DNA of 64,000 nucleotides from Rhodoferax ferrireducens (GTDB lineage Bacteria > Pseudomonadota > Gammaproteobacteria > Burkholderiales > Burkholderiaceae_C). Where the stretch lies: positions 62,001 to 126,000 of the forward strand of contig NZ_QEII01000318.1 of the NCBI RefSeq assembly GCF_003347515.1, given 5' to 3'. Shown here in pieces: positions 13,865 through 16,255 of the stretch (position 1 is its first letter; the number at the start of each line of letters is the position of its first letter). The position numbers and the translations under genes were made by a program. The notes under the pieces are model-generated. The model had not been told where the DNA came from. It saw only the letters and a list, made by a program, of their open reading frames with translations, and ran no database searches.

Positions 13865-13941
<77 letters not shown>

Positions 13942-13961
13942 TATCTTCTTTCTCTCGATCT

Positions 13962-14038
13962 CTGCCCGTAGCTCAGTTGGATAGAGCAACAGCCTTCTAA
14001 GCTGTGGGTCGGGGGTTCGATCCCCTCCGGGCAGACCA
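13962..14038 (+). tRNA. tRNA-Arg (anticodon TCT)
   Basis: A 77-base cloverleaf with acceptor arms CTGCCCG and CGGGCAG, anticodon stem ACAGC/GCTGT around loop CTTCTAA (anticodon TCT), T-arm GGTTCGATCC, and encoded ACCA end. It lies 20 bases after tRNA-Pro and is likely co-transcribed. Reads the rare AGA/AGG codons. Confidence 0.95.
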
Positions 14039-14260: not shown

Positions 14261-14494
14261 ATGAGGATGGTTTTTGGCGTTTTGAGTTTATTGGTCGTCG
14301 TCGCAGTGATAGGTATCTTGGCCAAGCAACAGTTTGGGTCACTGACAGGCGCACTCCCTGCAACCGGTGCGTCTTCTGTCGTTTCCTCGCCCGTGGCGAC
14401 AGCGCAGCAACAAAGTCTCCAGCTACAAAACCAGGTCAGGAAATCGGTAGCAGACGCGATGCAGCAGGCGCGACCCGAGGCCGACGAAAAATGA
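14261..14494 (+). CDS. Small single-pass membrane protein, unknown function
   Basis: A 77-residue product with a hydrophobic N-terminal helix (about residues 3-21) then a polar Ala/Ser/Gln-rich region ending in charged residues. GGGGAGG lies about nine bases before the ATG at 14261. Its stop overlaps the start of the DUF2844 gene (ATGA, 14491-14494), so it is the first gene of a three-gene operon of exported or membrane proteins. I do not recognise a family. It may assist export or anchoring of its partners, but this is only context. Confidence 0.65.
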   Translation: MRMVFGVLSLLVVVAVIGILAKQQFGSLTGALPATGASSVVSSPVATAQQQSLQLQNQVRKSVADAMQQARPEADEK

Positions 14495-14998: not shown

Positions 14999-16255
14999 AT
15001 GAGTCGTGCCGTCGCCCTTGCCCTTGCCCTTGTGATGACCTTGGTGACAGCCTGCGGCGGCGGTGGCGGCGGATCAGCGCCTGAGGTGACCAGCGCGGCC
15101 GGCCTCCCCACGTTGAATATTCCACCCAGTCAACTTGGCGCGAGCAATGTGCTTCCCGTTACGGTAGATGCGGGCCCTGCCAACACCGGCTACAACGTCA
15201 ACCGTTTGTACACGGATGTCACTATCTGCCAGCCCGGTAGCAGCACCCAATGCCAAACCATTCACCATGTGCTGGTGGATACCGGTTCCACCGGCCTTCG
15301 CCTATTGTCCAGCGCAATGGCGCCTGCCTTGAATTTGAACCGCCAGACCGTCAGTGCTGGCTTGCCGTTGCTGAATTGCGCGCAGTTCGTTGACAACACC
15401 TTCGCTTGGGGGCCAGTGGCGACGGCTGACATATGGCTGGCTGGTAAAACTGCCGCGAACGTGCCGATTCAGATTATTGCAGACCAGGCCTATAACAGTC
15501 AGGCTGCGGCATGTTCGGTCGGTGGCTCGGCGATCACTACCGCTGCGGTGCTTGGCGCCAACGGTATTATTGGACTTGGATTGTTCAAGGAAGACTGTGG
15601 GTCGGGCTGCGCCGCCATTACCAACAACGGTTTCTATTACACCTGCACCGATGCCACCTGCGCAGCCATCAGCGGCGTCAAGATAAGTAAGGACCAGCAG
15701 GTGAAGAATCCGGTGGCCTTGTTCGCGACAGATAACAACGGCGTGCTGATCGATTTGCCAGCCGTCAGCGCAGCCGGCGCAAGCACCTTGAGCGGTTCGC
15801 TTGTTTTCGGTATCAGTACCCAGTCCAACAATCAGTTCACCTCCGGTGCAATTCTGACGACAAGCGCCTCGGGCTACATCACTACTGTGCTTGCGGGGCA
15901 AAGCCTGAGCACCAGCTTTATCGACACTGGATCCAATGGCCTGTACTTTGATTCCAGCACGATTCCCCGCTGCACAGGCAGCAGCGCCGGTTTTTATTGC
16001 CCGACCTCACTCACCACCTTGTCGGCCACGCTGCGTGGTGCCAATACGGTGGCTGCGCCAGTTTCGTTTTCTGTAGACAATGCATCGGCGATGTTTGTGG
16101 GGGGCACCAAGACCGTTCTTCCAACCTTGGCTGGCAATATAGGTGACTCGAATACTTTTGATTGGGGTTTGCCCTTCTTTTACGGACGCCGGGTGTTTAT
16201 CGGCATCGAGGGGCAATCCTCAACGCTTGGAACCGGTCCTCTCTACGCTTTCTGA
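14999..16255 (+). CDS. DUF3443 family lipoprotein with two pepsin-like DTGS motifs
   Basis: From the ATG at 14999 the product is 418 residues; the open frame reaching 14792 runs through the upstream gene and is not used. A lipoprotein signal ends LVTAC at Cys19, followed by a Gly run as flexible linker. The body has two lobes. Lobe one has VDTGSTGLRLL (Asp94) and later NGIIGLGLF (~189-196). Lobe two has IDTGSNGLYF (Asp309) and LPFFYGRRVFIGIE (~391-404). This order mirrors pepsin-family aspartic proteases (DTGS, GILGL, DTG[ST], and a final LG-D-FxxxxYxVFD-type strand). DUF3443 has no assigned function known to me; proteolysis is an inference from motif layout. Nine or more cysteines suggest disulfides in the envelope. 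Confidence 0.82.
   Translation: MSRAVALALALVMTLVTACGGGGGGSAPEVTSAAGLPTLNIPPSQLGASNVLPVTVDAGPANTGYNVNRLYTDVTICQPGSSTQCQTIHHVLVDTGSTGLRLLSSAMAPALNLNRQTVSAGLPLLNCAQFVDNTFAWGPVATADIWLAGKTAANVPIQIIADQAYNSQAAACSVGGSAITTAAVLGANGIIGLGLFKEDCGSGCAAITNNGFYYTCTDATCAAISGVKISKDQQVKNPVALFATDNNGVLIDLPAVSAAGASTLSGSLVFGISTQSNNQFTSGAILTTSASGYITTVLAGQSLSTSFIDTGSNGLYFDSSTIPRCTGSSAGFYCPTSLTTLSATLRGANTVAAPVSFSVDNASAMFVGGTKTVLPTLAGNIGDSNTFDWGLPFFYGRRVFIGIEGQSSTLGTGPLYAF

Follow-up and report, generated by a model that had tools for sequence, protein, structure and literature searches.

The locus described here raises the question of whether lipoproteins of the DUF3443 family are pepsin-type aspartic proteases of the bacterial cell envelope. 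It lies in a 64,000-nucleotide stretch of Rhodoferax ferrireducens DNA (contig NZ_QEII01000318.1, positions 62,001 to 126,000; hereafter the window), and an earlier note on this DNA had likened its DUF3443 product to a two-lobed, pepsin-type protease. The open reading frame (ORF) at 14999-16255, on the + strand like all features of its operon given below, is genuine: its 418-residue product matches Pfam PF11925 with an E-value of 3.1e-134 over residues 48-418 (448 bits against a cut-off of 25), covering profile positions 3-367 of 367. The start is taken as the ATG at 14999 and not as 14792, the position in the mechanical ORF list, since 14999 agrees with both the lipoprotein signal and the aligned relatives. 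DUF3443 is probably an envelope-anchored, pepsin-like endopeptidase that either depends on or acts on DUF2844, the product of the adjacent gene.

The AlphaFold2 (AF2) model has the two-lobed pepsin-like fold, with high confidence over the full chain, which was the test that the earlier note had set for its own claim. Residues 29-400 of the model have full-length structural matches to the pepsin fold (VIA/Foldseek), and at this level of prediction a single chain holds two pepsin-fold lobes, each with one Asp. Profile-profile alignment places Asp94 and Asp309 on the catalytic Asp residues of bacterial and metagenomic peptidases of family A1. The fold and motifs first read from the sequence are thus supported at prediction level. 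A retropepsin-type reading was rejected because both lobes and both Asp residues lie in one chain of the model.

The two DTGS motifs are present at residues 94-97 (15278-15289) and 309-312 (15923-15934), 215 residues apart as had been noted, and they align with the N-lobe and C-lobe Asp of A1 peptidases, respectively. In the form xxD[ST]G[ST], where x is hydrophobic, they read LVDTGS and FIDTGS. When the window protein was shuffled 200,000 times, 527 of the shuffles held at least two D[TS]G[ST] motifs, so the motif pair alone is modest evidence, and conservation is the strong part of the evidence beyond it. D94 and D309 are invariant in all 103 aligned DUF3443 sequences, which are 40-78% identical to the window protein, and are among the 20 invariant columns of the 400 in this alignment; residue 310 is Ser in 69 sequences and Thr in 34. 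The flap hairpin (C127-A-Q-F130...W137-G138...D144; 15377-15430) aligns with the Y-x-D...W flap of A1, and W137 is found in 102 of the 103. Each lobe had also been credited with a matching second element. This holds for the N-lobe psi-loop element NGIIG (residues 188-192; 15560-15574), which aligns with the A1 GILGL, has the hydrophobic-hydrophobic-Gly pattern in I190-I191-G192, and keeps G192 throughout (103/103). The C-lobe psi-loop element WGLPFFYGR (residues 389-397; 16163-16189) is conserved as well (G390 in 103/103, R397 in 101/103), and its GLPF aligns with the A1 GLPL, but it reads Asp-Trp-Gly and not hydrophobic-hydrophobic-Gly.

Most of the 103 sequences came from a scan seeded with WGLPFFYGR, from which the best 80 of 562 relatives were taken; the selection therefore favours that motif, but it does not favour the Asp pair. 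Near-duplicate rows are few (L014 and L059 are the same gene). The DUF3443 loci of 250 genomes drawn evenly from the order make up a less biased set. It gave 21 loci (L105-L125), the weakest with an E-value of 1.2e-60 against a DUF3443 profile built in this analysis, and one (L122) with its gene split over two frames; the count leaves out L126, which falls below the family cut-off, and G926, which lies at a contig end. D94 and D309 are kept in 21/21 of these further members.

The lipobox proposed at Cys19 (VTAC, with Gly at +2; 15044-15055) is upheld by the relatives: Cys19 is invariant (24/24), and the strict pattern occurs upstream of the core in 85 of 94. Among the nine relatives that lack it, eight have a looser [GAS]CGG ending a hydrophobic run, and one is cut by the contig end. 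Ten Cys residues are conserved in at least 100 of the 103 sequences, which fits an exported protein and suggests disulphides. The linker from Cys19 to the core is short with few conserved residues, so no pepsinogen-like prosegment is seen. Under the sorting rule for lipoproteins, Gly at +2 leads to the outer membrane. DUF3443 would be exported and lipidated on Cys19, and its Gly at +2 makes the outer membrane its most likely location.

The protein is most likely an aspartic endopeptidase of the outer membrane or the periplasm. The fold and the conservation favour the standard two-Asp mechanism for it, in which each lobe would contribute one catalytic Asp (Asp94 and Asp309) and water would be activated between them. 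The flap hairpin, with Phe130 at the place of pepsin Tyr75, would close over a peptide substrate.

DUF2844 (PF11005; 14491-14994) is a small exported protein of 167 residues (Pfam E 1.4e-39), encoded four bases upstream of DUF3443. Its pairing with the family is a new observation here, one that the earlier note only touched on. DUF2844 adjoins DUF3443 in 88 of 95 loci, in one of them (L029) with a broken frame, and a contig end truncates four of the other seven loci (L034, L075, L079, L095). In L029 a DUF2844-DUF3443 fusion was considered and rejected; the DUF2844 end is out of frame, so an assembly frameshift is likelier. The gene is also adjacent in 21/21 of the further loci, lying downstream rather than upstream in two (L118, L120). 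In the 250-genome draw, DUF3443 is over its cut-off in 24 genomes and DUF2844 in 22, all of them within those 24 (hypergeometric P 1.4e-29, ignoring kinship). Of the other two genomes, G819 has a diverged adjacent DUF2844 copy, detected with a profile built in this analysis, and in G926 the DUF3443 match starts at base 5 of a contig. W92, G105, G148 and P157 of DUF2844 are found in 78/78 aligned sequences, and a Leu-Gly directly past the signal cleavage site (placed by eye) is nearly as constant, with L31 in 74/78 and G32 in 72/78. The DUF2844 model is of moderate confidence, with no fold assignable, and the Leu-Gly sits at the edge of a low-confidence stretch.

DUF2844 most likely works in trans on DUF3443, as a folding helper, an inhibitor or a pro-domain, or else it is the substrate. 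The last of these, in which DUF2844 is the physiological substrate, trimmed or matured in the periplasm, and the pair makes up one envelope module, is a version of the favoured explanation, and may be put forward tentatively. The adjacency of the genes, the restriction of DUF2844 to genomes with DUF3443 in the draw (22/22) and the conserved Leu-Gly are consistent with a substrate. The same pattern is expected of an inhibitor, a chaperone or a pro-domain, however, and the DUF2844 sequence reveals no cleavage site. It is possible, with similar reserve, that the two proteins form an envelope pepsin system in which DUF2844 serves as a separately encoded pro-domain or inhibitor, with its Leu-Gly N-terminus in the cleft and with Phe130 and Arg101 tuning the enzyme toward near-neutral pH.

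Several observations weigh against a pepsin-like endopeptidase that works together with DUF2844. PF00026, the A1 model in Pfam, is unmatched by all 103 members at E up to 1, and no PDB sequence matches the DUF3443 profile at E up to 10; taken by itself, the C-lobe gives a weak match to an A1 profile (E 0.0032, probability 10). Arg101, seven residues past Asp94, occupies a position that we take to be that of pepsin Trp39, and is Arg in 103/103 sequences and Arg or Lys in the 21 further members. The C-lobe glycine element D388-W389-G390 starts with Asp, as in at least 90% of the 103, and the position is hydrophobic in some divergent members. Phe130 stands at the flap Tyr75 position, which was assigned from the profile alignment with the A1 set; this residue is Phe in 100 of the 103 and Tyr in three, and Tyr in 5/21 of the further members. 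We found no enzyme activity for any DUF3443 member and, as far as the available part of one account goes, activity had as of 2009 not been demonstrated for any A1 homologue with Phe75 (PMC2761423). The same partial source records that a fungal enzyme changed from Tyr75 to Phe retained weakened activity (PMC2761423), and that Leu at the pepsin Asp303 position, where DUF3443 has L391 by motif register, also occurs in Shewanella and Colwellia homologues (PMC2761423). DUF2844 is truly absent locally in 3 of 91 uncut loci (L026, L049, L063). It is undetectable in the metagenome-assembled genomes of L026 and L049, which lie outside the 250-genome draw, and in the Variovorax genome of L063 another DUF3443 lies beside a DUF2844. 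In addition to its pair, G953 carries a further DUF2844 match, which is partial and lies on a contig lacking a DUF3443 match. DUF3443 is a variant of A1 and not a typical A1 enzyme, because of the flap Phe, the invariant Arg at the Trp39 position and the lack of a PF00026 match.

The main rival explanation takes this divergence further: DUF3443 would be a pepsin fold without protease function, a peptide-binding or inhibitor-like protein whose cleft binds DUF2844 or another ligand, much like the xylanase inhibitors and pregnancy-associated glycoproteins within A1. The Phe flap leaves room for such a role, and the Arg at the Trp39 position and the tight pairing with a small exported protein are in line with it. 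The complete retention of both Asp residues in the aligned and the further members argues against it, as does the presence of the DTG/DSG residues and of both psi-loop glycines in the aligned set. The non-peptidase A1 relatives named in the available portion of PMC2761423 lack the conserved active-site Asp, whereas DUF3443 keeps both. A binding protein that does not cleave is therefore an unlikely reading, although one to be taken seriously. That the pepsin likeness is a chance occurrence of motifs on a different fold is highly improbable. Sequence-only searches are weak (the lack of PDB sequence matches and an Asp_protease_2 match with E 0.11, below cut-off), but the high-confidence model, the full-length structural matches and the profile-profile alignment of both motifs contradict a different fold.

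The closest known systems are the A1 peptidases such as pepsin, endothiapepsin and rhizopuspepsin (PF00026), with which DUF3443 would share a two-lobed chain, a D[TS]G[ST] motif in each lobe and, in the model, a full-length structural match. Besides the departures in profile match, flap, Arg101 and C-lobe Asp-Trp-Gly, DUF3443 is unlike these enzymes in its lipid anchor, its ten conserved Cys residues and the lack of a visible pepsinogen-like prosegment. The A1 peptidases of Bradyrhizobium, Acidobacteria and metagenomes (among P0121-P0240) are alike in both Asp residues, in the flap Trp and in GLPL, which resembles GLPF. Unlike DUF3443, this bacterial set has Tyr in the flap (25/26) and Ala at +7 (23/26), and PF00026 matches all 120 listed, versus none of the 103 DUF3443 members.

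Shewasins A and D of Shewanella are two-lobed and pepsin-type; their activity needs both Asp residues and is stopped by pepstatin (PMC4814920, in part). As described in the same portion of that paper, they lack a signal peptide and are mainly cytoplasmic (PMC4814920), whereas the window protein and most of its relatives carry a lipobox. PecA is a mycobacterial surface enzyme, and the C-terminal domain of PecA/PE_PGRS16 (PF20729) carries a DTG followed by a DSG; PE_PGRS proteins are exported by type VII secretion (both from part of PMC6819658). DUF3443 is like PecA/PE_PGRS16 in being bacterial with two motifs and, by prediction, in its place at the cell surface, and unlike it in that PF20729 gives no match to the window protein at E up to 1. 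Ten divergent members are also unmatched at E up to 0.5, and 3 of the 103 members match at E up to 1, the best with E 7.7e-5. PE_PGRS16 (4EHC) is not among the 50 structural matches listed (VIA), which carries no weight either way. The Rlo proteases of Pseudomonas are exported bacterial aspartic proteases that are retropepsin-like (PMC12239564, in part), and retropepsins as a class have one lobe per chain (PMC2761423, in part); the DUF3443 model differs in having both lobes in one chain.

DUF3443 is over its cut-off in 4 of 369 genomes drawn from the class, 10 of 398 from the phylum and 24 of 250 from the order, the window's own genome being counted in each; for comparison, 4 of 299 genomes in a phylum draw have PF00026 above its cut-off. 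The named loci include Rhodoferax, Polaromonas, Paraburkholderia, Caballeronia, Variovorax, Chromobacterium and Acidobacteria, and a protein search gave 5708 DUF3443 relatives at E up to 0.001 among 7995 candidates scored. One member, P0050, is already labelled 'predicted aspartyl protease' by one source, so the link between DUF3443 and aspartyl proteases is not wholly unseen. We found no open-licence PMC paper on DUF3443, DUF2844 or PF11925, nor on pepsin-type bacterial lipoproteins or Acidobacteria pepsin-like aspartic proteases, which is weak evidence of absence. Pepsin-like proteases had been described as rare in bacteria with known examples. The rarity may be overstated, given PecA (PMC6819658, in part) and the 1128 relatives of one bacterial A1 peptidase found at E up to 0.001, mostly from unnamed or metagenomic sources; A1 peptidases were reported from seven bacterial species in 2009 (PMC2761423, in part).

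Two other proteins met in the loci also resemble aspartic proteases. L013:1-3240 (-) encodes a large protein that combines Ig-like domains with a two-motif aspartyl-protease-like region (Asp_protease_2, E 8.2e-7) and WD40-like propeller repeats; it is matched weakly by DUF3443 and is perhaps another bacterial two-lobed aspartic protease type. L126:349-2391 (+) encodes 681 residues with weak matches to Asp_protease_2 and DUF3443, below the DUF3443 cut-off. It seems to be another kind of aspartic-protease-like protein, and G893, of the same genus, has a comparable match that also falls below the cut-off.

The operon in the window is laid out as the earlier note had it, as one run of a 77-residue membrane protein (14261-14494), DUF2844 and DUF3443, and an ATGA overlap joins the first two genes. 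The membrane protein and DUF2844 had together been suggested as helpers in export or folding. DUF2844 does go with the family, but the membrane protein, which shares the operon here, is outside the conserved pair: among the loci examined its relatives are found at four loci of other genomes besides its own genome's copy, so it is not in the conserved core. It has no family over cut-off in Pfam or NCBIfam, and NCBIfam matches neither the DUF3443 nor the DUF2844 protein. The window's own genome has one DUF3443 and one DUF2844 match. Genes for tRNA-Pro (tgg) and tRNA-Arg (tct) lie just 5' of the operon (window 13865-14038), and a GntR/FCD regulator and a methylmalonyl-CoA mutase are encoded downstream.

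Apart from the pair, clustering of neighbours in the 59 loci of at least 9 kb gave no cluster of more than 12 loci, and these clusters look like lineage synteny. The clustering dropped ORFs that overlap longer ones, so its counts for DUF3443 (55/59) and DUF2844 (22/59) are too low and were not used. A gene with a zinc-ribbon and a putative metallopeptidase domain (Peptidase_Mx, scanned in L059 only; L059:6228-7724, -) belongs to a cluster near DUF3443 in eight Paraburkholderia-type loci, which also appears to be lineage synteny. DUF3443 genes occur in tandem in three metagenome-assembled contigs (L040, L075, L097).

Should the proposed protease and its partner be real, two families of unknown function would gain a role together. 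In the pro-domain or inhibitor version, the regulatory part that is a prosegment in eukaryotic pepsins would come from a neighbouring gene as a protein of its own. The DUF2844/DUF3443 gene pair may be an example of trans regulation of an aspartic protease. The two-lobed bacterial enzymes described as characterised, in the portions of the papers available, are the cytoplasmic shewasins (PMC4814920) or mycobacterial PecA (PMC6819658), and a pepsin-type enzyme would now be placed in the envelope of Burkholderiales, Acidobacteriota and other groups. With a Phe flap beside a fully conserved Asp pair, DUF3443 would also provide a direct test of A1-like activity with Phe75, a question that part of PMC2761423 presents as open in 2009.
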